The translations under genes and the position numbers were made by a program. DNA of 64,000 bases from Salinisphaera hydrothermalis C41B8 (GTDB lineage: Bacteria; Pseudomonadota; Gammaproteobacteria; Nevskiales; Salinisphaeraceae): the NCBI RefSeq assembly GCF_000732535.1, contig NZ_APNK01000001.1, forward strand, positions 186,001 to 250,000. Reading direction: 5' to 3'. Positions 1,294 to 17,662 of the stretch are shown here, in pieces. The notes below the pieces were generated by a model. It ran no database searches. It was not told the origin of the DNA and saw only the letters and a list, made by a program, of their open reading frames with translations. Position 1 is the first letter of the stretch, and each line of letters starts with the position of its first letter.

Positions 1294-1294
1294 T

Positions 1295-1744: not shown

Positions 1745-1865
1745 CGGATCCCTCGGCGAACCATCAAGTCTGCAATTTCTTGATACCACGGCCCGCCGGT
1801 ATTCGTCATCTAGCATATAGGCTTAAAACATCAGCGCTTAGCGCTGGCCGAACATCGCCATCGGC

Positions 1866-2648
1866 TCATTCCCGAAAACCCGGAAAGGCCGGCAGCGTGC
1901 GATAGAAATCGAAGTCGTGATTAGGCCAGAGCTCGGCGCCTTCTTGCGCTGCCAATTGCTTGAGCCGTCGAATGCTGTCCACCGCTTGGGTTTCGCGATC
2001 CTGCCAGCAGTAACCCGGGGCGATCTCGTCGTCCAGATTTTCCATCAGATCCGCGGCATCTCCGCATAGAATCACCGGCGGCCCCTTGGGCAGCTCGATG
2101 AACAACGACATATGACCGGCGGTATGGCCCGGCGTCTCGATCGCCTGGATGCCGGGGGCCGGCGAGTATGCCGCCGGCTGGATACGCCAGTTGTCGCGCT
2201 CGGCGATTTCATCGTCAAAGATGCCGCTGACCTCGCCGGTATCGGCCGCTTCGACCTCGTCGCGATGAATATGTACCTCGCAGCCGGGAACATCGCATAG
2301 CCCGCCGGCATGGTCGAAGTGCAGATGACTGAGAAATACCAGATCGATATCGTCCACGGTCAGGCCGAGCCGTTGCAGATATTCGGGGATGCGCTGCGTC
2401 TGGGACATCTCCGGCACGTCGAAGGTCGGGCGCATCGGTTCCAAATAACGGGCACGCAGTTCCGGCGTGGCGATCTTGTGGTAGTCGCAGCCGACATCGA
2501 ACAGGATGCGGCCATTGCGCGTTTCGATCAGATACGCCAGGATCGGCGCCTCGATATAGACCCCGTGACCACGGCCGCGCGTGGACACGGTCTTTTCATA
2601 ACGATGCGTAGCCGTCAGCAATGGCCTGATGCGTAATGCGCCGCTCAT
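1866..2648 (-). CDS. Metallo-beta-lactamase-fold hydrolase, N-acyl homoserine lactonase-like
   Basis: The 260-residue protein carries the zinc motif SH108LH110FD112H113AGG, then ETPGHTAGH, the bridging aspartate in CGDAAD and a late histidine in WPNHDFD. This is the arrangement of the AttM/AiiA lactonase branch of the metallo-beta-lactamase fold. These cytoplasmic enzymes open lactone rings, often of acyl-homoserine lactones, but some act on other lactones. The gene lies 88 bp downstream of the unknown gene that ends the guanidine operon and may be read from the same transcript. I see no luxI/luxR genes nearby, so a quorum-quenching role is only one possibility. The substrate is not determined by sequence. 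Confidence 0.85.
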   Translation of the reverse strand: MSGALRIRPLLTATHRYEKTVSTRGRGHGVYIEAPILAYLIETRNGRILFDVGCDYHKIATPELRARYLEPMRPTFDVPEMSQTQRIPEYLQRLGLTVDDIDLVFLSHLHFDHAGGLCDVPGCEVHIHRDEVEAADTGEVSGIFDDEIAERDNWRIQPAAYSPAPGIQAIETPGHTAGHMSLFIELPKGPPVILCGDAADLMENLDDEIAPGYCWQDRETQAVDSIRRLKQLAAQEGAELWPNHDFDFYRTLPAFPGFRE

Positions 2649-2736
2649 CCGTTGGCCCTCCAGGTTATTGATTCGGGAAAAACCCGATCCGCCAGTCTTG
2701 TATTTTCAAAGGCTCCACGGCCGCTGGGAGCTTTTC

Positions 2737-3414
2737 TTACCGGGCGTCCGGTACTTCGCAGAGGTCGCCGATTCGCCAAGGATGGGTCGAACGCGCGACG
2801 CGCCATCCGTCGGCGTCGCGGCACAGATAGCTGACCTCGGTCGCCGCACGCCGGGCGAGCGCGGCGCCGGCCAATGTTTCGGGCGCTTCCAGCAACTCGT
2901 GGTCGGCCTCCAGCGACGGCCGGGGGACGATACGAAACGCATGCGTGCCCTGCTGCAACCAGACCGGCAGACCGACCTCGTCGATCCGCGCCACCTCACC
3001 GGTCGCATCACCGGACGCGACCTTCTCCCAGCGCTCGAGATAACGGCCGTCCGGATGCTGTTCTTCGAGCAGACGGTCGGAGAGAAACCGCATCGCGCCG
3101 ATGTCCTTATCCAGTCCCGGCGCCATATCCACCAATCGATGCCAGGTACAGAAGCGGCCCTCGACGATCGTACGCCCGGCGAAAGCCGTCAGCCCGGCGA
3201 TCCAGATCAACTGCATACGATCGCAGTCGGCGAGGCTCCCCACACCAGTGAAATCGGGCATATCGACCGGAATGCGCAAGTCGGCATGCCAGAGGCCCGT
3301 CTGTAGCCAGTACACTTCGGTGGTCGTATCTTCGACCACGGACGGACCGGCCGCCGGCTCGACATACAGTCGGCGCCGCCACAAGCCGCGATAGCGCGCC
3401 GGTACCTCGCTCAC
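2737..3414 (-). CDS. Unknown protein co-translated with the 2OG oxygenase
   Basis: I do not recognise this 225-residue protein with certainty. It is soluble, has no signal peptide or transmembrane segment, and is rich in Trp and acidic residues. The N-terminal part (LWRRRLYVEP...TTTEVYWLQTGLWHADLRIP) reads like alternating beta strands, and several later segments do too (GRFCTWHRLVD, TEVSYLC, GWRVARS). A lipocalin-like or HRI1-like beta barrel is a weak guess. The ATG overlaps the stop of the 2OG oxygenase by 4 bp, which implies translational coupling and a shared job, for example holding or delivering the substrate or product of that enzyme. No catalytic motif is evident. Confidence 0.8.
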   Translation of the reverse strand: MSEVPARYRGLWRRRLYVEPAAGPSVVEDTTTEVYWLQTGLWHADLRIPVDMPDFTGVGSLADCDRMQLIWIAGLTAFAGRTIVEGRFCTWHRLVDMAPGLDKDIGAMRFLSDRLLEEQHPDGRYLERWEKVASGDATGEVARIDEVGLPVWLQQGTHAFRIVPRPSLEADHELLEAPETLAGAALARRAATEVSYLCRDADGWRVARSTHPWRIGDLCEVPDAR

Positions 3415-4451
3415 GAGGCGTCGCCGTGACGGGCGTGCTGGCCGAAGGTCGCCGTACCGCGGGCCCCGGCCGGCAGGGCGATCTCGCCACGCGCCAGGCG
3501 CGCCTGCAGATAATTGAAGGTCTGGATGGTCTGGGCGTAGAGATGTTCGCCGGCCTGCAGCGGCTCATAGTTCGCTGCACCATCCCGCGCGACCAGATGC
3601 GGTAGCGGCGCGACCTCGGTGTGATAGTCGCAAGCAAAGAACAACGGAAAGCTATAGCGCTCTTCCGGCACCTTGCGTACCCGGTGCGACGTGGCCACGA
3701 ACTCGCCGTTGGTCCAGATCTGGAGCATGTCGCCAATATTCACCACGAGCGCCCCCTCGCGATACGGCACGCTGATCCATTCGCCAGCGCCGTTCATCAC
3801 CTCCAGCCCGGCCGCGGTCGGCAGCAGCAGGGTGAAGCACTCATAGTCGGTATGCGCGCCAATGCCCTGAGCGTCTTCGGCCTCGGCATCGTAGGGGTAA
3901 TGGATCAGCCGGAGCTGGCTCGGCGGTTGGGTCACATGCCTGGAAAATTGATCGGCCGGCAGATCGAGCGCGACCGCGAACGCTTCCATGAGCGCGCGGC
4001 CGACCGCGAACGCGTCTTCGTAATAGCCATAGACTGCCTCGCGGAAGCCCTCCAGATCCGGCCAAACATTAGGACCGAGCATGGGCGTGCCTGCGGCCTC
4101 GGCCCAGGACATTTCGAAGGCAAGATCAAAGGCTTCCTTGCGATCCGGTTTATTCGGATCCGGCGATTCTTCGCCCGGGGGTACATAGCCACGATGATGG
4201 GTCGAGCGGCCGATGTAGTAATCCATCTTGCGGTCGTGATCGAGGGCAAAGAACCGCTGGGCCTGGCTCAGCAAAGCCGCGCGGCGCGCCTCGCCGATGC
4301 CATGCCCGACAATCTGGAAAAAACCGACCTCGCGGGCCGCACGTGCCAGTGCGTCCGCGACCTCGGCGCGAGCCGCCGGGTCGCCGCTGAACAGGCCGGC
4401 CATATCGATGGTCGGCACACTTGCGAAGTCGGCCGGTTGTCCGGGATTCAT
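3411..4451 (-). CDS. 2-oxoglutarate/Fe(II)-dependent oxygenase (isopenicillin N synthase-like)
   Basis: The protein has 346 residues. The N-terminal DIOX_N region (VPTIDMAGLFSGD...VGFFQIVGHGI) precedes the jelly-roll catalytic core. Iron ligands H200-x-D202 (IGAHTDY) and H256 (ATSHRV) and the 2-oxoglutarate anchor R265-x-S267 are present. The HTDY context and GEHLY near the end recall ethylene-forming enzyme and homoarginine-6-hydroxylase relatives, several of which release guanidine from arginine or homoarginine. I chose the ATG at 4451 because it overlaps the allophanate hydrolase stop (TGATG); the longer open frame upstream is a shadow of that gene. Its position in a guanidine operon makes a guanidino compound the natural candidate substrate, but this is inference. 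Confidence 0.85.
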   Translation of the reverse strand: MNPGQPADFASVPTIDMAGLFSGDPAARAEVADALARAAREVGFFQIVGHGIGEARRAALLSQAQRFFALDHDRKMDYYIGRSTHHRGYVPPGEESPDPNKPDRKEAFDLAFEMSWAEAAGTPMLGPNVWPDLEGFREAVYGYYEDAFAVGRALMEAFAVALDLPADQFSRHVTQPPSQLRLIHYPYDAEAEDAQGIGAHTDYECFTLLLPTAAGLEVMNGAGEWISVPYREGALVVNIGDMLQIWTNGEFVATSHRVRKVPEERYSFPLFFACDYHTEVAPLPHLVARDGAANYEPLQAGEHLYAQTIQTFNYLQARLARGEIALPAGARGTATFGQHARHGDAS

Positions 4452-6283
4452 CAACAGATCTCCTGTTCGGTGGTCGATGCCAGCCAGGCCCGCCAGCCGC
4501 CAAAGGCGCTGATTTCGATGACCTCGGCCTGGGAATCCAGGGCCCCGGCGGCACAGATGAAACCGGTCACCGAGCGATCGTCGGCCAGCGTGACCCGGCC
4601 CAGACCGAGGGGCGCTGGAATACCCGCGAGGAAACTGCCGATGCTCGCCATGGGCAGCCGCCACAATTCGACCGCGATCGCCTGCCCTGCCTCGGCGTCC
4701 TCGATCAGCGCCGGGCGCGGTGGTTGATCGGCGGTAAGCGCGAACAATCGATATCGAGGCGCCGTTTCGGTCACCGCCGTGCGCCGGCCGCCGCGTTCGA
4801 CCAGCTGATGGTTCAAGGCCAGACCGTCTAGATGCGCACCGCAGACGGCGATCTCCAGGGTCCCGTCGCCGGCCGGCGGCAGCGCCGGCAACGCCGGGCG
4901 CGGTCGCCCGGTTGCCCCGAGCGGCAGATCCAGCCGTGCCTCGAGCGCGCGCGCCAGGCTCAGCAACGACAGATCGGCAAACGCCGGGCCGAACAGCGTT
5001 ACCCCGCCCGGGCGCCCGTTTTCGCCGATCGCGATCGGCACGGCCAGCGCACTGTAGTCGAGCAGATTCATGAAATTAGTCCAGGTGCCGAGCCGCGTAT
5101 TGACCGCGACCGGCTCGGCCGCCACCGCCGCCTTGCTCGGATGCGCGACCGTCGTCGGCGCCAGCATTACGTCGACCTCGGCCAGCAGACGATCGGCCGC
5201 GCGCTTGTGCTCGGACAGGCGATAACCGGCATCGAAGGCATCCAGCGCGCTCGGCGCCCGCCCCGCTTCGATCACCTGGCGGGTAACCGGATGCAGCGCG
5301 TCCGGCGAGCGCTCGATCAGCGATCGCACGGCGTGATAGCGCTCGGCGACCCACGGACCGCCGTAAAGCAGCCGGGCCGCCTCCAGCATCGGCGTGCAAT
5401 CGATCTCGACCGGTTCGCCGCCGAGCGCGCGCAGCTCGCCGATCGCGGTCTCCATGCAACGGCTGTAGGCGGCATCGGTCTGCCATTGATTGCGCGGCGG
5501 CACCCCGAAACGAAAATGCGCCGGCGGCCGGCCATAGCGCTGGCCTGCGATCGCGAAATCATGCGCGCGTGCCTCGGCACAGTCCCCGTCGAAGACCGCC
5601 GCGACATCGAGAATCGCTTGGGCATCGTCGGCCGTCAGCGCAAACAGGCTGATCGTATCGATGCTGCGACAGGCCGGGACCACGCCGCGATTGCTCAACA
5701 AGCCGACGGTCGGCTTGAGACCGAACAGATTGTTGAAACAAGCCGGCACGCGACCGGAGCCCGCCGTGTCGGTGCCGAGCGCGAAGCTGACCTGGCCGGC
5801 CGCCGTGGCCACCGCAGAGCCGCTGCTGGAGCCGCCGGGGATGTAATCGGGATCGAAGGCATTGCCCGGCACGCCGTACTCGGCCGGCGCGCGTTCGCCA
5901 ACCAGGCCGGTGGCGAACTGATCCAGGTTGGTCTTGCCGAGCGGAATCGCCCCGGCCGCGATCAGCTGTTCGACGACGAAGGCATGCTGCGTGGGCACAT
6001 AGGCGAATGCCGGGCAGCCCGCCGTGGTCGGAATACCGGCCAGGTCGATGTTGTCCTTGATCGCGAACGGCAAACCATAGAGCGGCAAGGTCTCCGGCGA
6101 TTCGCCGTCGAGCGCGGCCAGATAGGGTTCGAGCTCGTCGACGGTCAGGCGCCGAATCCAGGTCGGATCGGAGCCGCGTGCGGCGGCCTCGGCCAGCAGC
6201 TTGGCCACCAGGGCGCGAGGCGTCAGCTCGCCGCTGCGATAGGCAGCGTGCAGCGTAAATCGGGTCAGATCGCGGCCGCTCAT
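4451..6283 (-). CDS. atzF: Allophanate hydrolase
   Basis: This cytoplasmic amidase hydrolyses allophanate to two CO2 and two NH3, the last step of guanidine, urea or biuret breakdown. The 610-residue protein has the full two-domain AtzF/DUR1 architecture. The N-terminal amidase-signature domain carries K76 (AIKDNID), the GGSSSGSA serine cluster near 151-158 and the likely nucleophile S176 (GTDTAGS). The C-terminal domain (about 440-610) is typical of allophanate hydrolases and handles the decarboxylation step. The ATG at 6283 overlaps the carboxylase stop by 4 bp; the extra 65 codons upstream in the open frame are the shadow of that gene. The family does not discriminate between sources of allophanate. 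Confidence 0.93.
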   Translation of the reverse strand: MSGRDLTRFTLHAAYRSGELTPRALVAKLLAEAAARGSDPTWIRRLTVDELEPYLAALDGESPETLPLYGLPFAIKDNIDLAGIPTTAGCPAFAYVPTQHAFVVEQLIAAGAIPLGKTNLDQFATGLVGERAPAEYGVPGNAFDPDYIPGGSSSGSAVATAAGQVSFALGTDTAGSGRVPACFNNLFGLKPTVGLLSNRGVVPACRSIDTISLFALTADDAQAILDVAAVFDGDCAEARAHDFAIAGQRYGRPPAHFRFGVPPRNQWQTDAAYSRCMETAIGELRALGGEPVEIDCTPMLEAARLLYGGPWVAERYHAVRSLIERSPDALHPVTRQVIEAGRAPSALDAFDAGYRLSEHKRAADRLLAEVDVMLAPTTVAHPSKAAVAAEPVAVNTRLGTWTNFMNLLDYSALAVPIAIGENGRPGGVTLFGPAFADLSLLSLARALEARLDLPLGATGRPRPALPALPPAGDGTLEIAVCGAHLDGLALNHQLVERGGRRTAVTETAPRYRLFALTADQPPRPALIEDAEAGQAIAVELWRLPMASIGSFLAGIPAPLGLGRVTLADDRSVTGFICAAGALDSQAEVIEISAFGGWRAWLASTTEQEIC

Positions 6284-9200
6284 ACCGAGGCCTCCGTGTT
6301 GGCGTCGACAATCACGACGGGCTGGCCGGCGGTGACCGCCCCGCCTTCCGCGATGGGCAGGCGCGCGATGCGGCCGGGCCCGCGAGCCACGATCTCGACT
6401 TCCATTTTCATGGACTCGACCAGGGCCACGACCTGGCCCTCGGCGACCTCGTCGCCGACCGCGACCTTGAGTTTCCACAGACTGCCGGCCACCGGGCTAT
6501 CGATGGCGGCTTCATCGGCTCCCAGCTCGGCGGTTTCGCTGGTTTCGGGCACGTGGTCTTCGAAAGTGAACTGCCCGTTGGCGCGCCAACGTGCCATCTC
6601 CTCGGCAAACGCGGCCTCGCGTTTTTCCTGAAAGGCCGCGATCGCGTCTTCGCTGCCGGCCAGATTGCGCTCGTACTCGGCCAGCGAGAAGCGCACGGTT
6701 TCGGTTTGCAGATCGAAGCGGCCATGCAGGAATTCGGCCCGGATCGCCATCAGCTCGTCGTGCGTGACCTCGTAGAAAGACAGCTGATCAAAAAACCGCA
6801 GCAGCCAGGGCTGGGTGAAATGCCGGGTCTCGCGATAGCGGTTCCACATCTGCAGCGTCCGGCCGACGAACTGATAGCCGCCCGGGCCTTCCATACCGTA
6901 CACACAGAGATAGGCGCCGCCGATACCCACCGAATTCTCGGCGGTCCAGGTGCGGGCCGGATTGTATTTTGTGGTCACCAGGCGCTGGCGCGGATCCAGC
7001 GGGGTCGCGACCGGCGCGCCCAGATAGACATCGCCCAGCCCCATGACCAGATAGCGGGCATTGAACAGGATCTCGCGGATCTCGGCTTCGCTGTCCAGGC
7101 CGTTGATACGCCGAATGAAATCCAGATTGCTGGGGCACCAGGGTGCATCCGGGCGCACGCTGCGCTGGTATTTCTCGATCGCTTCGTGGCAGGCCGGATC
7201 GTCCCAGGACAACGGCAGATGCACCAGCCGTGATTCGACTTCCAGATCCTCGACCTCGCGCAACTCGCGCTCGGCGGCCTCAAGATGGGCGAGCAACGCC
7301 GCCAGCGTCAACCGGTTCGGATCGTAGTGGATCTGCAGCGAGCGAATGCCCGGGGTGAGTTCAGCCATGCCGTCGATCGGATGCTCGCGCAGCCAGAGCA
7401 TCCAGGCATGGGCCCGAAAGCGCAGCGCGATATCCAGCGTCATCTCGCCGAATTCGATCAACAGGAAATCGTCGCCCGCCTGCCGATAGACCAGTTTTTC
7501 GCCGGCAGTCTCGGCGTCGAGTTCGCGCAATATCGGCGCCCCGCGCTCGATCGGCCGTTCGGGCTCGGGCACCACGGCGAGCGTTTCGATCAGACTTCGT
7601 TGGCGGGCCTCTAGCGCTCGCGCGGTCGCCTGGGAAACCGGCACGAACCGTACCGTATCGCCCGCAGCCAGCTGACCGAGCTTCCAGCGCTCGGCGCGCA
7701 CGGTCGTGGCCGGACAGACAAACCCACCGAGCGAGGGCCCGTCCGGCCCCAGGATGACCGGCATGTCGCCGGTGAAATCGATGGTGCCGAAGGCATAGGC
7801 ATTGTCGTGGATATTCGACGGATGCAGGCCGGCCTCGCCGCCGGTCTCGCGGGCCCACTCGGGGCGCGGACCGATCAGGCGGATACCGGTGCGGCTGGAA
7901 TTGAAGTGCACTTCCCAGTCGTGGCTGAAGACGGTGTCGATATCGGCTTCGGTGAAGAAATCCGGCGCGCCGTGCGGGCCGTACAGCACGGCGATCTCCC
8001 AGTGCCGCTTGCCTTCGCGGGTCTCGCCGAAAGTCGGGCGCAGTTCGGGGGCCAGGCTGCGGACCGGCACCGGCTCGACCGCCGCCAACGGCAAGGTATC
8101 GCCAGTGCGCAGAGCACGCCCGGCATGGCCGCCGAACTGACCGAGGGTGAAGGTGGACCGGGAGCCGAGATAGCGCGGGCAGTCAATGCCACCGGCGACG
8201 AGCAGGTTGCAGCGCGCCCCGCCCTGAACGCGCCCGAGCACAAGCGTGCCGCCGGCCGGCACGTCGATCACCTGCCAGGGCTCGATCCCGGCATCGTCCA
8301 GGCGCGCCTCGATCGGCGCGCCCGCGAGCACGATCTGGGTCGCTCGGTTGAAGCGGAGGGTCGGACCGGCCAGCGTGATTTCCAGACCGGCGGCATCGGG
8401 CGCGTTGCCCAGCAGTCGGTTGCCGAGCGCAAACGAGAAATCGTCGAACGGGCCGGAGGGCGGCACGCCCACATCCCAATGGCCGAGCCGGCCCGGCAGG
8501 TCCTGAATCGTGGTCAACGGGCCGGCGTCGAGCACTTCAAAAGTCGGCGGCGCCCAGTCGAGAGCGCCCAGCCAGCGGGTATGGATATCCGCTGCGGCAA
8601 AGCGCGTATCGCGCAGCACATGGGCCAGCCAGCTCAGATTGGTTTCGATGCCGTAGACCCGGCTGGCGTTCAACACCTCGGCCAGCCGCGCCCGCGCGCT
8701 CTCGCGATCGGCGCTATGTACGATCACCTTGGCCAGCATCGGGTCGAACAGCGGCGAGACTTCGAGACCGGCCTCGATCGAATGATCGATACGCAGATCC
8801 CGCGCCTCGGGGAACGCCACTTGGGTCAGCAGACCGGCGCTGGGGCGGAAATCGTGGTGCGGATCCTCGGCATAGAGCCGGGCCTGGATCGCATGTCCGG
8901 TCGGCGCCAGATCCCGCGTCATCTCGGCCAGATCGAGCGCCTCGCCGGCACCGAGCCGCAGCATCCAGTCGACGATATCGACGCCCCAGACCGCCTCGGT
9001 CACGCCGTGCTCGACCTGCAGCCGAGTATTCACCTCGAGGAAATAGAAGGCTTCGCGGGCGGCGTCGTAGATGAACTCGACCGTGCCGGCACTGCGATAT
9101 TGCACGGACTCGCCAAGGGCGACGGCCGTGGCCAGCAGATCGCGGCGTACCGGCTCGGCAAGCGCCGGCGCCGGGCACTCCTCGATCACCTTCTGATTAC

Positions 9201-9897
9201 GACGCTGGGTGGAGCAGTCGCGCTCACCGAGGGCAACGACCGTGCCGGCCCCGTCGCCGAAGATCTGGACTTCCAGATGCCGCGCCCGGGCGATATACGC
9301 TTCCAGAAACACCCCGGCATCGCCAAAGTTACGTTGGCCGAGTCCGCGTACCGAATCAAAAGCCCGTCCGAGCTCCGCCTCGTTCTCGCAGACCTGCATG
9401 CCGATACCACCCCCACCCGCGGTGGATTTGAGCATCACCGGGTAACCGATCCGCGCGGCTTCGTGCTTGGCGGTTTCGACATCGTCGAGCAGCCCCGAGC
9501 CCGGCACCAGCGGCACGCCGGCGGCCTCGGCTAGACGACGCGCCTCGTGCTTCAGCCCGAAGGCACGCACCTGCTTGGCAGTGGGGCCGAGAAAGACCAG
9601 GCCGGCATCTTCACAGGCGGTGATGAATTCTTCGTTTTCCGAGAGAAATCCATACCCCGGATGAATCGCCCCGGCGCCAGCCGAGGCCGCAATATCGAGC
9701 AGTTTGTCGCGATCGAGATAGGTGTCAGCGGCGCTGCCCTCGCCGAGCGGGTAGGCCTCGTCGGCCGTTTGCACGAACGGCGCATCGCGATCCGCCTCGG
9801 CATAGACCGCGATCGATCCGATACCGGCCGCGTGCAGGCTGCGCTGGATACGCGTGGCAATCGCGCCGCGGTTGGCGATGAGAACTTTGTTGAACAT
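6280..9897 (-). CDS. Biotin-dependent guanidine/urea carboxylase
   Basis: The 1205-residue multidomain enzyme has, in order: biotin carboxylase (about 1-450; ANRGAIATR, Gly-rich STAGGGGIGM, EVNTRLQVEH), a KipA/AHS2-like region (about 465-780; PGRLGHWDVGVPPSGP), a KipI/AHS1-like region (about 800-1020), and a C-terminal biotinyl domain with K1164 in ESMKMEVEI. Proteins of this layout are annotated urea carboxylase (urea to allophanate). Those linked to the two DUF1989 proteins were shown to prefer guanidine, giving carboxyguanidine. Two facts favour guanidine here: the two DUF1989 genes lie just upstream, and two ACGA-loop hairpins precede the start. The next gene overlaps by 4 bp. The substrate still needs biochemical proof. 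Confidence 0.95.
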   Translation of the reverse strand: MFNKVLIANRGAIATRIQRSLHAAGIGSIAVYAEADRDAPFVQTADEAYPLGEGSAADTYLDRDKLLDIAASAGAGAIHPGYGFLSENEEFITACEDAGLVFLGPTAKQVRAFGLKHEARRLAEAAGVPLVPGSGLLDDVETAKHEAARIGYPVMLKSTAGGGGIGMQVCENEAELGRAFDSVRGLGQRNFGDAGVFLEAYIARARHLEVQIFGDGAGTVVALGERDCSTQRRNQKVIEECPAPALAEPVRRDLLATAVALGESVQYRSAGTVEFIYDAAREAFYFLEVNTRLQVEHGVTEAVWGVDIVDWMLRLGAGEALDLAEMTRDLAPTGHAIQARLYAEDPHHDFRPSAGLLTQVAFPEARDLRIDHSIEAGLEVSPLFDPMLAKVIVHSADRESARARLAEVLNASRVYGIETNLSWLAHVLRDTRFAAADIHTRWLGALDWAPPTFEVLDAGPLTTIQDLPGRLGHWDVGVPPSGPFDDFSFALGNRLLGNAPDAAGLEITLAGPTLRFNRATQIVLAGAPIEARLDDAGIEPWQVIDVPAGGTLVLGRVQGGARCNLLVAGGIDCPRYLGSRSTFTLGQFGGHAGRALRTGDTLPLAAVEPVPVRSLAPELRPTFGETREGKRHWEIAVLYGPHGAPDFFTEADIDTVFSHDWEVHFNSSRTGIRLIGPRPEWARETGGEAGLHPSNIHDNAYAFGTIDFTGDMPVILGPDGPSLGGFVCPATTVRAERWKLGQLAAGDTVRFVPVSQATARALEARQRSLIETLAVVPEPERPIERGAPILRELDAETAGEKLVYRQAGDDFLLIEFGEMTLDIALRFRAHAWMLWLREHPIDGMAELTPGIRSLQIHYDPNRLTLAALLAHLEAAERELREVEDLEVESRLVHLPLSWDDPACHEAIEKYQRSVRPDAPWCPSNLDFIRRINGLDSEAEIREILFNARYLVMGLGDVYLGAPVATPLDPRQRLVTTKYNPARTWTAENSVGIGGAYLCVYGMEGPGGYQFVGRTLQMWNRYRETRHFTQPWLLRFFDQLSFYEVTHDELMAIRAEFLHGRFDLQTETVRFSLAEYERNLAGSEDAIAAFQEKREAAFAEEMARWRANGQFTFEDHVPETSETAELGADEAAIDSPVAGSLWKLKVAVGDEVAEGQVVALVESMKMEVEIVARGPGRIARLPIAEGGAVTAGQPVVIVDANTEASV

Positions 9898-9914
9898 GGC
9901 TCGATTTCGCTAGG

Positions 9915-9962
9915 CGCGGGTCGTCCCGCGGGAACTCGCAACGCCATGAGTCGTCCCATGGC
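9915..9962 (-). promoter_or_regulatory. Guanidine-II (mini-ykkC) riboswitch candidate
   Basis: Read on the minus strand, two hairpins lie in tandem 17 nt upstream of the carboxylase ATG. The first is GCCATGGG-ACGA-CTCATGGC (9962-9943; 8 pairs including one G-U). The second is CGCGGG-ACGA-CCCGCG (9930-9915; 6 pairs). They are separated by a 12-nt linker. Guanidine-II riboswitches are defined by exactly this: two small hairpins with ACGR tetraloops, GC-rich closing pairs and a short linker just before a ribosome-binding site, usually acting as ON switches for guanidine exporters or carboxylases. Guanidine would stabilise loop-loop pairing and expose the start region. No ykkC class I or III motif was found elsewhere in the locus. 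Confidence 0.85.
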
Positions 9963-9975
9963 TGTTTTTAATGGC

Positions 9976-10103
9976 CCGCCAATAAACGCGAACAAGCACA
10001 AGACAGTCCTCCGCGGATTTCGCAGATGACGCAGATTTAGGTTCTGCGAAATCGGCGGATAAACCAGGGTCCCTATTTGCGTTTAACTCGCGTTCATTGG
10101 CGG
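9976..10103. repeat. CGCAGATT-type inverted element between deiminase and carboxylase genes
   Basis: Outer arms CCGCCAATAAACGCGA (9976-9991) and the complement of TCGCGTTCATTGGCGG (10088-10103) match at 15 of 16 positions. Nested inside is a second hairpin around GATTTCGCAGA (about 10010-10026) and TCTGCGAAATC (about 10043-10053), enclosing a GCAGATT copy. The element occupies most of the 227-bp gap and lies immediately upstream of the riboswitch. It resembles the element at 40149-40393. Confidence 0.7.
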
Positions 10104-10124
10104 ACTAATCGATCGATATTCAGA

Positions 10125-10763
10125 TCAATCCCAGACCAGCACTTCCAGCGGCGTCGGATTGAAACCACTACAGGGGTTATTGAGCTGCGGGCAGTTCGAA
10201 ATCAGCACGACCACATCCATGGCGGCGACCATTTCCACATACTTGCCGGACCCGGAAATACCGTCGTCGAAGTAAAGCTCGCCGTCGGCGGTGACCGGCA
10301 CGTTCATGAAGAAGTTGATGTTGTGCGCGATATCCCGTTTGTCGATGCCGTATTCCGGATGGTTGGCGATCGCCAGCATCCAGTTGTCACGGCAGGAGTG
10401 CATGTGCCGCTTTTCCAGGTCGTAGCGCACCGTATTGGACTCGCTGGCACAGGCCCCGCCGAGGGTGTCGTGGCGGCCGACCGTATCGGCGGTGATGGTC
10501 AGCATCACGTTATTGAGATTCGAGCGCAGCTCGCTGCCGGTGGTCAGATAGACTTGGCCCTGCTCACGAAGCGTGTCCATGCAGCTATAGCGCTCGGCCG
10601 GATCGTGGGCATTGAAGAACAGCGTATCGGCGGCTTCGTTGCCGTCGACATCGACGATACGAATTGTCTGGCCGGCTTTGACCGGGCCGATGTAGTGGTC
10701 CCCGGCATCGATCAGATGGCGGGTAACGGCGTTTTCGACACGCCGGGCACTCGCGATGGTCAT
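10125..10763 (-). CDS. Carboxyguanidine deiminase subunit, UAAP2-type DUF1989 protein
   Basis: The 212-residue protein of the DUF1989 / urea-carboxylase-associated family has the segments [40 protein letters not shown] and [10 protein letters not shown] that mark the UAAP2 type. With the neighbouring UAAP1-type subunit it forms carboxyguanidine deiminase. That enzyme converts carboxyguanidine to allophanate plus ammonia and links guanidine carboxylase to allophanate hydrolase. Conserved Cys and His residues (GGACASE, HSC) are plausible metal ligands, but I cannot confirm them. AGGAG precedes the ATG. It follows its partner after 21 bp and precedes the carboxylase by 227 bp. Confidence 0.92.
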
Positions 10764-10784
10764 GATGAACTCCTGGATTCGTGT

Positions 10785-11516
10785 CTAGCGCGGCGCGCCG
10801 AGGTGATACAGGCGATTGTTGGCAAAGCCGCGCGCGTTCTCAGCGCAGTGCGCCCAACAGACATCGTTTTCGTCCGGCGGGGGCGCGGTGCCCAGCGCGA
10901 TATCCACGCCGCGCTTGGGATAGTCGGCGCTGGGGTCGAGCGGATGCGGGCAGGTATGCAGGGCCACCAGCGTATCCATCTCGAAACGCAGGGTGACCGA
11001 GGCCCCGGCCGGACAATGATCGGGCACATAACTCAGCCGTCCGGCGTCGTCGGCCACGACCTTGGAAAACAGGTTCAGATTGGCCGCCAGATCGCGGGCG
11101 CCAAGGCCATATTTGGCCAGCTCGATCAGGAAACTGTCGTGGCCGGTCTGGGTGCGGTCGTTGAGCGCCTGCTGAAAGCTGACCGGCTGCCAGCCCTTGG
11201 CGATCATATGTCCGGCATTCAGATTACCGCCGACGCTGTCGTGCCAGCCCAGATCGTCTTCGATGATCGAGGCAAAGATCCGGCCCATATCGGAATACAG
11301 GCAGTGACCTCGGGTCAGCTTGAAGGTGTGCTGGCACTTGAGCGTATCCGGCAGGTTCAGCCGCTCGAGCAGGTTTTCCGGGTTGTACATCAGCAGCCCG
11401 ACGTTGGCGCCGGCCTCGGCGGCGGTCAGCCGCATCGTGGCCCCGCGGCGCAGTCGCAGCGACCAGTGCTGGCCACCCGGCAGGTGGGTCTCGTAGTCGA
11501 TGGCGTGGATTGTCAT
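10785..11516 (-). CDS. Carboxyguanidine deiminase subunit, UAAP1-type DUF1989 protein
   Basis: The 243-residue protein contains the UAAP1 hallmarks LPGGQHWSLRLRRGATMRL, GANVGLLMYNPENLLERLN, TFKLTRGHCLYSDMGR and DDLGWHDSVGG. It is paralogous to the smaller subunit encoded next, and the pair is required together for deimination of carboxyguanidine to allophanate. No signal peptide or membrane segment is seen, so it acts in the cytoplasm. The ATG overlaps the stop of the hydrolase gene upstream (TGATG at 11516), showing that this metabolic pair is part of the transporter-hydrolase transcript. Old annotations call it urea amidolyase-associated protein 1; the DUF1989 pair argues for guanidine rather than urea as nitrogen source. 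Confidence 0.92.
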   Translation of the reverse strand: MTIHAIDYETHLPGGQHWSLRLRRGATMRLTAAEAGANVGLLMYNPENLLERLNLPDTLKCQHTFKLTRGHCLYSDMGRIFASIIEDDLGWHDSVGGNLNAGHMIAKGWQPVSFQQALNDRTQTGHDSFLIELAKYGLGARDLAANLNLFSKVVADDAGRLSYVPDHCPAGASVTLRFEMDTLVALHTCPHPLDPSADYPKRGVDIALGTAPPPDENDVCWAHCAENARGFANNRLYHLGAPR

Positions 11517-12190
11517 CAGCTCAGGGCTCCTTGATTGGCGTTGTTCAAAGCGGCGGATGGCTGGCTATCGCCCCACTCGGCCAGTACCGTCGCGGTATCG
11601 CGTACCCGGCCGAGAATCGGCCCCTCCGGGCCCTCGATCAGGCCGAGTGCGGCGGCATGAATAGACGCATCGGCCGCGGCACAGGCATTGGCGACGGTCA
11701 CGCACTCGTAACCGCGATCGACCGCCTCGCGCAGCGTCGAGTGCACGCAGATATCCGTGGTCACGCCGGTCACATAAAGATGCGTCGTGGCCCGGACCCG
11801 CAGGAGCAGTTCAAGATCGGTCTGATAGAACGCGCCGTAGCCGGGTTTATCGACGACCCGATCGCCCGCGGCCGGGGCCAGTTCGGGCACGACCTCATGC
11901 CCCGGTTCGCCGCGCACGAGAAAACGACCGAGAGCGCCGCGCGCGCCGATACCGGCGCCACACGCCGCGCTGCGCGCCCGCTTGGCCGGATGACAGTCCG
12001 CCAGATCCGGGCGGTGGCCTTCCCGGGTATAGATCACGGCGATCCCGCGCTCACGCGCTGCCGCGATCAATCGGGCGATCGGCTCGATCGGTTGTCTCAG
12101 CAGCGCGATATCCAGCCCGCAGGCGGCCGCATAGCCGCCGGCCTCGCAGAAATCGCGCTGCATATCGATAACGAGTAGTGCTCGACTCAT
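11516..12190 (-). CDS. Isochorismatase-fold cysteine hydrolase, biuret-hydrolase type
   Basis: The 224-residue isochorismatase-like hydrolase has an intact catalytic triad D9 (VIDMQRDF), K115 (DKPGYGAF) and C148 (TTDICVHST). The segment YTREGHRPDLADCHPAKR is typical of family members found next to urea/guanidine carboxylases and of biuret hydrolases. Biuret hydrolase makes allophanate and ammonia, so its product would enter the same pathway at allophanate hydrolase. Ureidoacrylate or N-carbamoyl substrates are alternatives. It is a soluble cytoplasmic enzyme. The gene lies 21 bp after the second binding-protein gene and overlaps the UAAP1 gene, so it belongs to the same operon. Confidence 0.85.
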   Translation of the reverse strand: MSRALLVIDMQRDFCEAGGYAAACGLDIALLRQPIEPIARLIAAARERGIAVIYTREGHRPDLADCHPAKRARSAACGAGIGARGALGRFLVRGEPGHEVVPELAPAAGDRVVDKPGYGAFYQTDLELLLRVRATTHLYVTGVTTDICVHSTLREAVDRGYECVTVANACAAADASIHAAALGLIEGPEGPILGRVRDTATVLAEWGDSQPSAALNNANQGALS

Positions 12191-12211
12191 GGCGATTCGG
12201 CGACCGACCGA

Positions 12212-13210
12212 TCAGTGGGCCAGCGATTGCACGATGCTCGGATCGATCGTGTCGGCGATCTTGGGCGCCGACTCGATCTGCTTCTTGCGCACCAGCACCT
12301 GGCTGATGACCTTGCCGCTGACATAGAACGACTGGCTGCTGGATCCCGGGGCGAAGGTCGTCGACATCTGATCCAGCGGCAGGTTCTTCACGCCCTTGAG
12401 CTGGACGGCGACCTGATCGGTATCGATCCGCAGCTGCTTGCCGATGATGGCGGCCGCTTCCTGCGGATGCGACTGCATGAAATCCAGGCCCTTCAGGTAA
12501 GCCTGGATCACGGCCTTGACCTGGTCGCGATGCGCCGCGATGTAGCTTTTCTTGAACACCAGCACGTCGGTGATCAGGCCCGGGGCTTGATGCGAGGAAT
12601 ACAGCACGTGGAAGCCCTTCCCGTGGTCGACGATACGCGACACGCTGGGCTCGTAGGTGACACCGACCTTGATCGAGCCGCCGAGCATGGCGCTGGGCAC
12701 ATCGTCGGGCGTCATCGACACCGGCTGGATATCGCTCGGCTTCAAACCGTTCTGTTCGAGCGCGTAGTCGAGCAGAAAAGCCGACGGCGACAGCGGATTG
12801 AAGGCGACCTTCTGGCCCTTGATCTGTTTGACCTGGGTGATCGACTGGGTCGCGACGATGGCATCGGCGCCGTCCGAGTAGTCGATCGGCATCACGACCT
12901 GCAGCTTGCGGCCTTTCGCGTCGGCATTGATCACCTGGTCGTAGGTCAACGCCGCGCCGTCAATGGCCCCGCCCGCCAGCGCCGAGGGCATGGTCGCATT
13001 ATCGCTGAAGGTCACCATATGCACCGGCACGCCCTCGGCCTTGAAATAGCCTTTCGCGTCGGCGACATAGAGCGGCCCATAGCCGATCCAGTTCACCACG
13101 GCGAGCTTGAGCGGTTTGGCGGCCAGCGCCGGGCCGGCCAGTGACACGGCGGCCAGCATGAGCATGGCGGTGAGGCCACGACGAACACGGCGCGATGAGT
13201 TCTCTTTCAT
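12212..13210 (-). CDS. ABC transporter substrate-binding protein, NitT/TauT family (second copy)
   Basis: A periplasmic binding protein of 332 residues with an N-terminal signal peptide (positively charged start, MLMLAAVSLAGPALAA). The mature part begins KPLKLAVVNWIGYGPLYVADAKGYFKAEGV, the opening of the nitrate/taurine/pyrimidine-type binding proteins (NMT1/SsuA-like). I chose the ATG at 13210 because GGAG lies just upstream; the longer frame needs a TTG. It is clearly different in sequence from the binding protein at 15083-16075, although both serve the same permease/ATPase block. Having two such proteins may widen the ligand range. The ligand is unknown; context suggests guanidine or a guanidino or ureido compound. 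Confidence 0.88.
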   Translation of the reverse strand: MKENSSRRVRRGLTAMLMLAAVSLAGPALAAKPLKLAVVNWIGYGPLYVADAKGYFKAEGVPVHMVTFSDNATMPSALAGGAIDGAALTYDQVINADAKGRKLQVVMPIDYSDGADAIVATQSITQVKQIKGQKVAFNPLSPSAFLLDYALEQNGLKPSDIQPVSMTPDDVPSAMLGGSIKVGVTYEPSVSRIVDHGKGFHVLYSSHQAPGLITDVLVFKKSYIAAHRDQVKAVIQAYLKGLDFMQSHPQEAAAIIGKQLRIDTDQVAVQLKGVKNLPLDQMSTTFAPGSSSQSFYVSGKVISQVLVRKKQIESAPKIADTIDPSIVQSLAH

Positions 13211-13296
13211 GGTCAATCTCCAGGTTCTCAAGACAGGGCCGCTCTGAACGACCGGATAGACACAACAGGACAGGCGAAACAGGTACGCACCACGAA

Positions 13297-14163
13297 TCAG
13301 CGGGCGGCGTTGCCTTGCATACGGCGCCCGAGCGCGGTCATGCGTTCGATCAACTTGTGATCGGCTTCCATGCCCGAGGTCTCGCGAATCCGCTCGGTCA
13401 GCTGCCCCTTGACCTTCGTGAACTCGGGGTCGAGCTTGAGCGCCGGCTCGCGCTCGCGGCCCCAGGCCATGTGATGGATGCCGTCGATCCGTCCCGGATG
13501 CGGCGCCAGTACCACCACCCGATCGCCGAGATAGGCGGCCTCCTCTACGTCGTGGGTAACGAACATCACGGTGGTCGGCTCCACGGCGAACAGCTGCAGG
13601 ATCAGGTCGTGCATGACTTCGCGTGTCTGGGCATCGAGGGCGCCGAACGGCTCGTCCATGAGCAGCACCCGCGGGCGCGACAACAGCGCACGCGCGATCG
13701 CCACGCGTTGCTGCATGCCGCCGGAGAGTTGGTTGGGGTAATGATCGCGGCGATCTTCCAGGCCCATCATCTCGATCAGCGCATAAGCGCGATCCACCAA
13801 CCCCGAAAGCTCGCTTTCGGTTTCGATCGCCCGCATGTTGGCGCCGAGTTCCAGCGAGAACATCACGTTCTGCTTGACCGTGAGCCAGGGAAACAGCGTG
13901 TAGTGCTGAAACACCATGCCGCGATCGGCCCCCGGCTGATCGACCACTCGATCGCCGAGACGGATGACGCCGCCCTGGGCATGCTCGAGGCCGGCGACCA
14001 GGCGCAGCAGGGTCGATTTGCCGCAGCCGGACGCCCCGATCACGGTAACGAATTCGCCCGGCTCGACGCGCAGCGAGACATTGTCGAGCACGGTCTGCTG
14101 TCCGCCGCGACCGTCGGGATAACGTTTTTCCACAGACTCGATATGCAGGATTTGATCGCTCAT
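13297..14163 (-). CDS. ABC transporter ATP-binding protein, NitT/TauT family
   Basis: The 288-residue ATPase subunit energises the importer. It has Walker A GASGCGKST (43-51), Q-loop context MVFQHYTLFPWLTV, signature LSGGMQQR, Walker B VLLMDEPFGALD and the switch histidine in FVTHDVEEAAYL, all in the usual order. The C-terminal extension past the ATPase core is common in SsuB/TauB relatives. The open frame continues far upstream in the shadow of the permease gene; the ATG at 14163 begins MSDQILHIES, where homology starts. It is transcribed with the permease (26-bp gap) and the two binding proteins. Confidence 0.93.
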   Translation of the reverse strand: MSDQILHIESVEKRYPDGRGGQQTVLDNVSLRVEPGEFVTVIGASGCGKSTLLRLVAGLEHAQGGVIRLGDRVVDQPGADRGMVFQHYTLFPWLTVKQNVMFSLELGANMRAIETESELSGLVDRAYALIEMMGLEDRRDHYPNQLSGGMQQRVAIARALLSRPRVLLMDEPFGALDAQTREVMHDLILQLFAVEPTTVMFVTHDVEEAAYLGDRVVVLAPHPGRIDGIHHMAWGREREPALKLDPEFTKVKGQLTERIRETSGMEADHKLIERMTALGRRMQGNAAR

Positions 14164-14189
14164 CTCGGCTTCCTTCGGACAGGGCGCGT

Positions 14190-15077
14190 TCAGTGCAGCC
14201 AGGGGAACAGCCGCCGATGCAGCTGGCGGAAGAACAGATCGAACAGCAACCCGATCACGCCGATGATCAGAATCCCGGCAAAGATCGTGGAGGTGTTCAT
14301 AAAGCGCTGGGCCTGCAGGATCGCGTAGCCGAGCCCCTTGTTCGCGGCCACCATCTCGGCGACCACCAGATAGGTCCAGGCCCAGCCCATGTTCACGCGC
14401 AGGATGTTGATCAGCGGCGGCAGACTGCCGCGCCAGATCACCAGTCGCAGGGCTTCGCCCCGGGTCGCGCCCAGCGTGTAGGAGGCTTCCAGCCAGCTGC
14501 CGGGCACCTGCCGGACCACGTCCGCCACCATGACGATGATCTGGAAGAAGACACCGATGAAGATGATGGCGATCTTTGAGCCTTCGCCGATGCCGACCCA
14601 CAGAATCATCAGCGGGATAAACGCGGCCGCCGGCATGTAACGCACGAAATCGTTGATCGGCTGGAAGAACCCTTCCACGGCCTTGAACGAGCCGATGAAC
14701 ACGCCCAGCGGCACGCCAAGACAGGCCGCCAGGACGAAGCCGCTCACCACGCGCACGATGCTGGCCCAAGTATCCTGCGCGAGCGAACTGTGGGCCCAGG
14801 TCCAGCCCTGCTCGATGACGTCGCCCGGCGTCGGCAGGAACATGGTGTCGATCAGGCCGCTGCGTGACAGCAGTTCCCATGCCACCAGCGGCAGTACGAA
14901 ACCGAGTATCGACAGCGTGACGTAGACCTTGCGCGGGATCGACTGCTGCAGCCGCAACAGCGGGCGACGACGAACCGCCGGCCGCGCCGTGGCCGATTTC
15001 ACGGCCCGATCCCGTGCGCGAGGTGTATCGGGGCCCGCGTGCGCGGCCGGCCCCTGTGCGATCGCCTGGCTCTTCAT
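14190..15077 (-). CDS. ABC transporter permease, NitT/TauT family
   Basis: A 295-residue inner-membrane permease with about six hydrophobic segments after a basic 45-residue cytoplasmic N-terminus. The segment VPGSWLEASYTLGATRGEALRLVIWRGSLPPLI contains the EAA-type loop (EAsytlGAtrgea...P) that contacts the ATPase. It is a BPD_transp_1 family member of the SsuC/TauC kind. The start lies 5 bp downstream of the first binding-protein stop and the gene is followed by the ATPase gene, so the transporter is one transcription unit. The substrate follows from context only: import of guanidine or of a compound broken down to it. Confidence 0.92.
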   Translation of the reverse strand: MKSQAIAQGPAAHAGPDTPRARDRAVKSATARPAVRRRPLLRLQQSIPRKVYVTLSILGFVLPLVAWELLSRSGLIDTMFLPTPGDVIEQGWTWAHSSLAQDTWASIVRVVSGFVLAACLGVPLGVFIGSFKAVEGFFQPINDFVRYMPAAAFIPLMILWVGIGEGSKIAIIFIGVFFQIIVMVADVVRQVPGSWLEASYTLGATRGEALRLVIWRGSLPPLINILRVNMGWAWTYLVVAEMVAANKGLGYAILQAQRFMNTSTIFAGILIIGVIGLLFDLFFRQLHRRLFPWLH

Positions 15078-15082
15078 GACAT

Positions 15083-16075
15083 TCAGTCCTGCGAGGCGAT
15101 GGCCTGATTGACCACGCTCGCGTTGATGAACGATGCCGGATCAGGCTCTTTGGCCAGCTTGCCGGACTTTTTCAAAAAGGCCGCGGTATCCCGCGTGCTG
15201 GTATAGAGCGACTCCGGGGCGTCGCTTTCATGCATGGCTTTCTGATTGAGTTTTTCGCCAAAGAAACGCGTGCCCTTGAGCGACAACTCGTATTCCTTGG
15301 GCTTCAGATCCACATGCGGCGCCATGATCGCGGCCGCTTCTTGCGGATGGGCCTTGATGAACCGGACCACCGCAAACCAGGCCTTGGCGATAGCCTTGTA
15401 TTGCTCGGGATTGGCTTCGAGCGATTTCTGCTGTGCCACTAGCAGGTCCGGAATAAGACCGGGCGCCGACGCACTGGTGAACAACGCATGGCCCTTGCCG
15501 CGCTGCTCGATGCGGTTGATCCACGGGTTCCAGACCCCAGCGGCCGCGACCCGCCCGGCCATCAGCGCCGAGGCCGCGCTGCCGGTGGTCATGCTCACGA
15601 TGTTGCTGTCGTCGATATCGAGCCCTTGCCGCTTGAACGCGGTATAGGCCAGATAGTTCTCGATCGAGTAACGCTCGAAGGCGATGGTCTTGCCTTTGAG
15701 TTGCTTGAGGCTTTTGATGCCTGGCTGGGCCATGAACGCGTCATTGCCGGCCGAGTTGTCGGTCACCAATACGACCTTGAGCGGGGCGCCCTTCTCGATC
15801 GGCGCGAGCGTGTCGATCAACGCCTGGCTGTTGGCATCCAGCTTATCGGCGGCCAGCGCCTGGACCGAATCGATATACGACGGGAACCAGACCAGCTTTA
15901 CGTTGGCGCCGTACTTCTTGAAATAGCCTTTTTCCTCAGCGATGTACCAAGCCACCCAGCCCGGCCAGTCGCTGATCCCGATGGTGATCGGGCCCTTGGC
16001 CATCGCCGGCGCCGCGACCTGCAGACCGACACCGAGGGTCAGGACGATCAGCATGTGTCTGAACAGTTTTCTCAT
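15083..16075 (-). CDS. ABC transporter substrate-binding protein, NitT/TauT family (first copy)
   Basis: A periplasmic protein of 330 residues with a clear signal peptide ending APAMA. The mature domain starts KGPITIGISDWPGWVAWYIAEEKGYFKKYG, an NMT1/SsuA-type fold. The segment VWFPSYIDSVQALAADKLDANSQALIDTL lines the binding cleft in relatives. It is the first structural gene after the GntR regulator (79-bp gap) and stands 5 bp before the permease. A second, divergent binding protein is encoded downstream of the ATPase. Taurine, nitrate and urea-type ligands are known for relatives; in this locus guanidine or a guanidino compound is the simplest inference. Confidence 0.88.
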   Translation of the reverse strand: MRKLFRHMLIVLTLGVGLQVAAPAMAKGPITIGISDWPGWVAWYIAEEKGYFKKYGANVKLVWFPSYIDSVQALAADKLDANSQALIDTLAPIEKGAPLKVVLVTDNSAGNDAFMAQPGIKSLKQLKGKTIAFERYSIENYLAYTAFKRQGLDIDDSNIVSMTTGSAASALMAGRVAAAGVWNPWINRIEQRGKGHALFTSASAPGLIPDLLVAQQKSLEANPEQYKAIAKAWFAVVRFIKAHPQEAAAIMAPHVDLKPKEYELSLKGTRFFGEKLNQKAMHESDAPESLYTSTRDTAAFLKKSGKLAKEPDPASFINASVVNQAIASQD

Positions 16076-16154
16076 GATGTGCTCCTAACAAAGAAAGTCA
16101 GTCGGGGCCGCTTCGAAAAAGGAATGCGGGATCGGACAACGGATCGGTGGCGAC

Positions 16155-16874
16155 TCATTCGGGGCACGGCGACTCTCCGGTGCGGGAGCGGGCGGCCACG
16201 TAATCGCTCGACACATGGGCAACCGACAGAACGTGCTGGCGCACCGCCTGCGCGGCGCGCTCGGCGTCGCCCGCCGAGATCGCCGCGACGATCTCGCTGT
16301 GCTCGGCAAAGGAGTGCTCCGGCCGGCGCGCCACCCGGAACTGGGTATGACGAAAAGGCGCCAGCCGGGCGCGGGTCGATAGCGTCAACTCGATCAGATA
16401 ATCGCTTTTCGAGCCCTGATAGATGAGCGAGTGAAAGGCATCGTTGAAGACGGCGTATTCGCTCGATCGGGTCGAAGCCCGCAGATCGCGCGAGCCTTCA
16501 TGCATGGCACTCAGCTGATGCCGTTCGGCGAGCGTCATGCGCTGGGCGCTCAGCCGCGCGCAGGCGGCTTCCAGTTCCGCCATCGCCTCGAACATGGCGA
16601 GCAGATCGGCCTGCGACACCTGCGCGGTAATCACGCCGCGATGCGGCCGGCTTTCGGCCAGACCCATGGCACAGAGCTGACTCAACGCTTCCCGAACCGG
16701 GGTTCGCGACACGGAAAACCGCTGCGCAATTTGCTGCGCTGGCAATCGACTGCCCGGCGGCCATTGCCCGGATACGATCTCCTCGGACAATACCGCCACC
16801 ATATGCTCGACGGCCTGCCCGGTTCGCAGGGACCGAGTCGGCAACGGATCTTCTTCCGAATGCGATGACGACAT
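16155..16874 (-). CDS. GntR-family transcriptional regulator, FCD subfamily
   Basis: The 239-residue regulator has an N-terminal winged helix (about 18-85; GQWPPGSRLPAQQIAQRFSVSRTPVREALSQL is the recognition region). A C-terminal FCD domain with the conserved acidic and histidine positions (FNDAFHSLI, EHSEIVAAISAGDAERA) probably binds a small carboxylate or metal. I prefer the ATG at 16874; a TTG seven codons upstream is possible. It is the promoter-proximal gene of the transporter-deiminase unit and probably controls it and itself. Two copies of ATTGCATGCAC upstream are candidate operators. The effector is unknown. Confidence 0.9.
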   Translation of the reverse strand: MSSSHSEEDPLPTRSLRTGQAVEHMVAVLSEEIVSGQWPPGSRLPAQQIAQRFSVSRTPVREALSQLCAMGLAESRPHRGVITAQVSQADLLAMFEAMAELEAACARLSAQRMTLAERHQLSAMHEGSRDLRASTRSSEYAVFNDAFHSLIYQGSKSDYLIELTLSTRARLAPFRHTQFRVARRPEHSFAEHSEIVAAISAGDAERAAQAVRQHVLSVAHVSSDYVAARSRTGESPCPE

Positions 16875-16904
16875 GAGCAAGCAGCGCAAATTCAATCGTG
16901 CTGG

Positions 16905-17012
16905 ATTGCATGCACATCGCGTGCCACACGCCGGATGGCCGTGATGACGCCTTAAAAACCGCGAATAATGCGCATCTCGCGCCGAATTGGGGCGCCGTTA
17001 AATTGCATGCAC
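16905..17012. promoter_or_regulatory. Repeated ATTGCATGCAC, candidate GntR operators
   Basis: The 11-mer ATTGCATGCAC occurs at 16905-16915 and again at 17002-17012. Each contains the palindrome TGCATGCA. They lie 31 and 128 bp upstream of the regulator start, one at a distance suited to cover the promoter. FCD-type GntR proteins bind short palindromes, so autoregulation is plausible. No binding evidence exists beyond the repetition. Confidence 0.4.
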
Positions 17013-17108
17013 TTTTGCGAAGCACGGGGAGCCCGCATGCGGATCCCGTATGAAAGAGCCGGCGCAGCCGGCTTGCACGAGGTCAAAGCCCAGCACCTTG
17101 GAATCGAC

Positions 17109-17377
17109 TTAGAGCCTATTCCAATAGGACGGCGTAGGCTGCGGCGCCCGCTCGGGCCGCAGGGGGAGGAAGGGGCGACGCGGTGTGGTGGCGCTACACA
17201 AGGAGTCCCTGACACCGCCCTGGGGCCCGAGCGGGCGCCCCGAAGGGATGGGCTGAGCGCGCACCCGGCGGTGTTGCGGCCTCCTGACGTGGCATGACCA
17301 CGCGGCGTCGGCCGCGCCTAGCCGGGCACACTCTCAGACCAGCGCAGACCCCGCTGTCCTATTGGGATAGGCTCTTA
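17109..17377. mobile_element. MITE-like element with AGAGCCTATT terminal inverted repeats
   Basis: The 20-bp end AGAGCCTATTCCAATAGGAC (17111-17130) is repeated in inverted orientation at 17356-17375 with one mismatch. A possible 3-bp target duplication TTA overlaps the ends (17109-17111 and 17375-17377). Inside, a perfect 16-bp inverted repeat GGCGCCCGCTCGGGCC pairs 17143-17158 with 17224-17239. No credible coding frame is present, so the element would need a transposase in trans. Related ends occur at 50860, 60608 and 60732. Confidence 0.65.
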
Positions 17378-17662
17378 GCACCGTACTCAGAGCACCGCGC
17401 CCGAACACAGAAACGGCAAAGCGCCTGCGTGTGGTCGATTCGAACGATCGATCAGCGTGTATCGGATCGGCCCATCCGGCTGAAATGACTCAGCATCGCG
17501 GCAATCTCAGGCCGGGCAGGCGGCCAACATCGGGCGCGCCCGGAGGCCGTCACCATGGCAAGCGGGATAGCAGCGCCCAGCCGGCGGCCCATACGCTCAG
17601 CGTGACTCGGCGTCACCTGGGCGAGGCGACGTTGGATCTCGTTCCGGGCCGGTCTCAGGCGA
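17378..17662. other. Non-coding stretch after the MITE
   Basis: No convincing gene, promoter or RNA was found here. Open frames in this stretch have compositions unlike the neighbouring genes. It separates the divergently placed regulator region from the 3' end of the putative nucleotidyltransferase gene. Confidence 0.5.

Follow-up and report, generated by a model that had tools for sequence, protein, structure and literature searches.

The locus raises the question of whether two small hairpins in front of a gene that profile annotation names urea carboxylase form a guanidine riboswitch, and whether the enzyme and its neighbours serve guanidine and not urea. In the window, by which we mean the whole stretch of 64,000 nucleotides of a Salinisphaera genome analysed here, the sequence-only reading had noted a pair of hairpins on the minus strand at 9915-9962, each with an ACGA loop, and had taken them for a Guanidine-II riboswitch. 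The description proved exact to the base, both in the sequence and in the fold. The aptamer (9915-9962) consists, read on the minus strand, of a hairpin P1 (9962-9943; GCCATGGG-ACGA-CTCATGGC) with 8 pairs including one G-U, a linker of 12 nt (9942-9931; GTTGCGAGTTCC), and a hairpin P2 (9930-9915; CGCGGG-ACGA-CCCGCG) with 6 pairs. A leader of 17 nt (9898-9914, minus strand; CCTAGCGAAATCGAGCC) separates P2 from the ATG start codon of the carboxylase gene, gca, at 9897. No strong Shine-Dalgarno sequence was seen in this leader by eye.

The covariance-model check confirmed the identity of the RNA. RF01068 (Guanidine-II) matched positions 9916-9962 of the minus strand with 36.8 bits, above its gathering score of 32 (Rfam 15, cmscan of the 64-kb window). 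With the whole window scanned against 4227 families the E value was 0.001, and with positions 1-20000 it was 0.00031; no further Rfam family reached its gathering score in the 64 kb. A single Guanidine-II match (E = 1.5e-5) was found in the 4.28-Mb genome. Since at most 150 first-look candidates were scored per genome (150 of 753 here), "only match" and "no match" refer, for this family, to the candidates scored. Like the Guanidine-II (mini-ykkC) family, the RNA has two ACGA-loop hairpins joined by a short linker close to the 5′ side of a start codon; the stretch between its hairpins is a base shorter than in the model and, unlike the family, the RNA shows no clear ribosome-binding sequence. 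The minimum-energy fold holds both hairpins (-29.7 kcal/mol, z = -1.91; 9 of 200 shuffled sequences were equal or better), a folding energy which by itself would not prove a riboswitch. No clear partner for an off-state pairing was found. Scanning of 9890-10150 revealed nothing promoter-like, and the single terminator-like site there belongs to the opposite strand and corresponds to P1 in reverse. Judged by its sequence, the hairpin pair is a member of the Guanidine-II family.

The genes around the RNA are all encoded on the minus strand. Immediately upstream stand cgdB (10125-10763; UAAP2; TIGR03424, 318.1 bits) and cgdA (10785-11516; UAAP1; TIGR03425, 298.4 bits), names used here for the DUF1989 subunits of carboxyguanidine deiminase. 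Downstream, gca (6280-9897) is followed by atzF for allophanate hydrolase (4451-6283; TIGR02713, 711.3 bits, above cut-off), mgdH (3411-4451) and mgdL (2737-3414), with successive overlaps of 1-4 bases. A metallo-beta-lactamase-fold lactonase-like gene (1866-2648) begins 88 bp past mgdL; its membership in the operon is uncertain, and its orientation is opposite in the sister species.

The last two genes of the overlapping series had been read as a 2OG oxygenase and an unknown gene; by homology they would encode a methylguanidine hydroxylase, a 2OG/Fe(II) oxygenase, and an N-(hydroxymethyl)guanidine lyase. MgdH is 69.7% identical to the Vreelandella boliviensis protein over 346 residues. The residues H200, D202, H256 and R265 were located in it, and the HxD...H motif (H200, D202, H256) is what we take to be the iron site. 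The unknown gene corresponds to mgdL because its product is homologous to V. boliviensis MgdL (46.0% identity over 224 residues), D49 and R51 aligning with D45 and R47, the catalytic residues as found in the window. MgdL gave no Pfam or NCBIfam match. Its predicted fold is beta-rich (pLDDT 92); the model matched no PDB structure at E <= 0.001 and the sequence none at E <= 1. These homologies imply that the substrates of the operon should include methylguanidine. The genome also encodes a class III alcohol/formaldehyde dehydrogenase above cut-off (TIGR02818). Within the fetched stretches, mgdH and mgdL were both intact in 6 of 11 Salinisphaera loci and both missing in G001, G005 and G010; the G006 locus ends at a contig end. 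The sister genome G009 is a natural case of mgdL without mgdH: a remnant of 88 open codons holding both ends of mgdH (L027:4278-4544) is left, while mgdL stays, 80% identical to that of the window.

An operon of this type was described in V. boliviensis in 2025 (PMC12508155). According to that report, a Guanidine-I riboswitch stands at the operon head and a Guanidine-II riboswitch before gca, guanidine was shown experimentally to be used as nitrogen source, all operon proteins go up on guanidine or methylguanidine, and MgdH and MgdL demethylate methylguanidine. The apparent KD values given there for the Guanidine-II RNA, 93 µM for guanidine and 83 µM for methylguanidine, are about equal. The genome used here for comparison carries all four primer sites of the report, and its Guanidine-II RNA likewise lies between cgdB and gca. 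The published operon shares with the window this position of the RNA, the genes gca, cgdAB, atzF, mgdH and mgdL, and an ABC importer. The window differs from it by having no Guanidine-I at the head, by carrying genes for a GntR regulator, another transporter, an additional binding protein and an enzyme resembling biuret hydrolases, and by the place of mgdH and mgdL, which follow atzF in the window and lie between gca and atzF in V. boliviensis. Compared with the pathway of guanidine carboxylase, carboxyguanidine deiminase and allophanate hydrolase, the window holds the genes for all three steps and the signature residues of the carboxylase, to which it adds the genes for GntR, the transporter, the binding protein, the hydrolase and mgdH/mgdL. 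Salinisphaera is named in the report among the bearers of similarly expanded operons (PMC12508155), and this was the only account found that links the genus with a guanidine riboswitch.

One of the added genes bears on the nature of the substrate. The isochorismatase-like hydrolase (11516-12190) shares one base with cgdA and adjoins the gene of the second binding protein, and its best PDB match is a biuret hydrolase. It belongs to the same family as the biuret, triuret and guanylurea hydrolases but falls below the BiuH equivalog cut-off (NF050097, 256.3 against 370 bits), and its assignment as BiuH was not accepted. Guanylurea hydrolase, of this family, acts ahead of guanidine carboxylase in a proposed metformin pathway, according to PMC9800807. 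The RNA could thus be a guanidine switch while the main natural substrate is a different ureide or guanidino compound, guanylurea or biuret, degraded by this hydrolase, and guanidine serves only as intermediate and inducer. We consider this unlikely, though by no means negligible, given that the hydrolase scores well below the cut-off and that the intact MgdH and MgdL indicate methylguanidine. Use of guanidine and methylguanidine by the operon is the reading that we prefer.

The conservation of the RNA was evaluated within and beyond the genus. Guanidine-II was found above cut-off in 11 of 14 genomes of the genus, with one match each among the at most 150 candidates scored per genome. Of the other three, G007 and G012 lack a carboxylase scoring above the TIGR02712 cut-off, and G013 has only one that carries Asn at the site discussed below. 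Fifteen loci were aligned: the window, 10 other Salinisphaera copies and 4 from Halomonadaceae or close kin. In all of them the RNA is flanked by cgdB and the carboxylase gene. All 15 have ACGA as their first loop; the second loop is ACGA in 13 and ACGG in 2, which fits ACGR. The P2 stem GCGGG/CCCGC is identical in all 15 loci and, since it never varies, yields no covariation signal; the P2 core GCGGGACGACCCGC is the same in the window and in the V. boliviensis RNA. For P1, two-sided changes occurred in at least one sequence at 6 of 8 pairs. The alignment held 25 cells of two-sided change, against a shuffled mean of 13.1, and none of 500 shuffles reached that number. Furthermore, 88.2% of the cells were paired, against 35-59% when the partners were shifted by 1-3 columns. 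Of the five covariation measures, two did not rise above the shuffles (281/500 for the number of covarying pairs, 220/500 for pair types), and the outermost pairs of P1 are often open (C12-G29 unpaired in 7/15 and G11-C35 in 9/15).

These patterns argue against the hairpins being a chance match or a non-working relic, a view which could draw on an RF01068 score just 4.8 bits above gathering and on an insert that landed directly upstream of the riboswitch. With both loops and the P2 stem kept, P1 covarying and a copy of 35.7 bits retained in the sister genome G009, we regard it as very improbable. The insert itself (9963-10124, minus strand) is palindromic and repeat-like, fills the gap between cgdB and the riboswitch, and could carry other signals. 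Related inserts occupy the same place in three other species (L026:9742-10002, L027:10050-10242 and L029:10004-10259), and short pieces (26-39 bases) of the copy in the window gave nine further matches in the window's genome.

The substrate of the carboxylase was addressed through its residues. TIGR02712 names the enzyme urea carboxylase (1753.5 bits). According to PMC11410670, guanidine and urea carboxylases differ by Asp against Asn at position 1330 of the K. lactis enzyme, and Asp is required at 1584; a review states the Asp/Asn rule likewise (PMC12186494). In an alignment with the K. lactis enzyme from the PDB, residue 707 of the window's carboxylase aligns with Asn1330 and is Asp, and the Asp at the position of 1584 is present as D956. 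We then compared distinct genes, the duplicate fetches L027/L064, L028/L061 and L063/window being merged. All 16 distinct carboxylases read that are linked to a riboswitch, V. boliviensis included, carry Asp at the 1330 site. The genus also has five carboxylases of the other type, all with Asn at this site, namely the second copies of G002, G003, G004 and G008 and the sole copy of G013; the second carboxylase of G003 (L071) is split into two frames. The fetched stretches of these five loci gave no Rfam riboswitch match at gathering level. The pairing of Asp with a riboswitch is not without exception: the 20-kb locus of an Asp-type carboxylase in Xanthobacter (L044), which lies beside cgdAB, gave no Rfam riboswitch match. 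The Guanidine-II match and the Asp residue together support the earlier claim that the substrate is guanidine and not urea, and the "urea carboxylase" of this locus would accordingly be named guanidine carboxylase on the strength of its sequence. That gca encodes a true urea carboxylase, as the TIGR02712 name suggests, behind a riboswitch merely reporting guanidine stress is very improbable and was rejected, in view of the Asp at the discriminating site, the Asn of the five other carboxylases of the genus, whose fetched loci gave no Rfam riboswitch match, the adjoining DUF1989 carboxyguanidine deiminase genes, and what has been published on the enzymology of related enzymes.

The head of the operon begins with a GntR-family regulator with an FCD domain (16155-16895; PF00392 and PF07729), followed by an SsuA-type ABC substrate-binding protein (15083-16075), an ABC permease (14190-15077), an ABC ATPase (13297-14163), a second binding protein of NMT1/SsuA type (12212-13231) and the isochorismatase-like hydrolase. 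The same order is found in G009, with 88-96% identity between both. Where matched, the transporter genes present at Guanidine-I loci in the genus share 26-48% identity with these. Guanidine-I (RF00442) had no match in the window's genome at E <= 0.001, all 128 candidates being scored, and none in positions 1-20000 of the window at E <= 1. It was above cut-off in 8 of the 11 Guanidine-II-bearing Salinisphaera genomes, directly at the operon head in 7 of the 8 loci; the match of G003 lies on a different contig from gca, and a match of G013 below cut-off (49.4 bits) was left out of the count. The Guanidine-II genomes without Guanidine-I are G010, the window strain and its sister G009. A sodium-solute symporter gene precedes cgdA by about 30 bp in G010, and a gntR 69% identical to that of the window lies directly upstream of atzF; gntR and atzF run divergently from the symporter, cgdAB and gca. 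The stretches fetched for the 8 Guanidine-I loci, some of them ending early, revealed no relative of GntR, whereas G376, which is outside the genus, combines Guanidine-I with a GntR.

The carboxylase tree groups the window with G009 and places G010 in a separate clade, beside G001 and G005; both clades have a support of 1.0. Because of these places, and because Guanidine-I is also present in G376 and in V. boliviensis (PMC12508155), two losses of Guanidine-I are the simplest reading, with horizontal transfer as an alternative. The operon head is here probably under the GntR/FCD regulator, which would control transcription, with Guanidine-II presumably acting on translation. All these features could be joined if one lineage lost Guanidine-I and its old transporter and gained GntR/FCD, the ABC importer with two binding proteins and the biuret/guanylurea-type hydrolase, giving a two-input gate, with a separate loss in G010. 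We put this forward tentatively, as a real but minority possibility. If true, GntR would sense an imported ureide or guanidino compound at the level of transcription and the RNA would sense the guanidine derived from it at the level of translation; in one Salinisphaera lineage, a protein regulator would then have taken the place of the riboswitch that headed its guanidine operon. In the literature searched, mostly openly accessible, no account of the GntR and Guanidine-II arrangement was found. One genome paper reports a LysR regulator for a uca operon linked to guanidine-I, and a GntR that lies beside a separate urease-linked cluster.

The data very probably describe a Guanidine-II riboswitch that controls translation of gca in an operon living on guanidine and methylguanidine. 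Crystals of Guanidine-II RNAs show two guanidines bound via loop-loop pairing, in a pocket open enough for methylguanidine (PMC5486947). By analogy, guanidinium or methylguanidinium would bind both ACGA loops of the window's RNA and hold a loop-loop complex, which is thought to permit ribosome start at gca; this release step is taken from the literature, and the ribosome-binding sequence is weak. The downstream atzF, mgdH and mgdL would probably be translated by coupling, which is plausible because the four genes overlap by 1-4 bases. MgdH is then predicted to hydroxylate methylguanidine and MgdL to cleave the product to guanidine and formaldehyde. Next, Gca and CgdAB would convert guanidine to allophanate, and AtzF would release ammonia. 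Transcription from the operon head would depend on the GntR/FCD regulator, as opposed to the Guanidine-I riboswitch of most congeners, and the window strain would be expected to induce these genes on guanidine.

Neither the riboswitch nor the operon type is new, and the find is largely known and mostly ordinary because the operon type was already described in 2025; the upstream gene set is unusual. The regulatory and transport variation at the operon head is worth a short report. The locus is also a clear case in which genes labelled urea carboxylase, UAAP1/2, 2OG oxygenase and "hypothetical" point to guanidine and methylguanidine use. The genus offers species with Guanidine-I and Guanidine-II, species with GntR and Guanidine-II, and a sister with mgdH deleted and mgdL kept, and their comparison could reveal the contribution of each regulator.

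Relatives of these genes were also seen elsewhere. In four genomes from other families of the class (L033, L032, L091 and L105), a different cluster combines a fatty-acid-desaturase-like oxygenase with an MBL-fold gene like that of the window, together with creatininase-like (L033, L091, L105), isochorismatase-like (L033, L091) and MgdL-like genes (L033, L032). We speculate that MgdL relatives may be hemiaminal lyases paired with another oxygenase. The desaturase-like gene was not found in the window's genome, in a search run without a positive control, and no published account matching the module of desaturase, creatininase, isochorismatase-like and MBL genes was found. In L030 (G097), positions 9349-19999 carry MgdL-like, EamA, ABC importer, creatininase-like and glutamine-synthetase-like genes upstream of cgdAB and gca, which makes it another expanded guanidine locus.

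Several further repeats were observed in the window. An inverted repeat at 40170-40374, with 52-nt arms that are 81% complementary and similar "ATCCGCAGATTTCGCAGATTACACAGATG" text, is probably of the same class as the insert at 9963-10124. The inverted ends of a MITE-like element at 26426-26701 are perfect over 28 nt and stand 220 nt apart; 34 kb away, at 60652-60723, lies a partial copy of the element (88% identical over 72 nt). Upstream of gntR, the segment 17111-17375 starts and ends, by eye, with similar inverted "GAGCCTAT(C/T)CCAATAGGA" text and is possibly a small mobile element.
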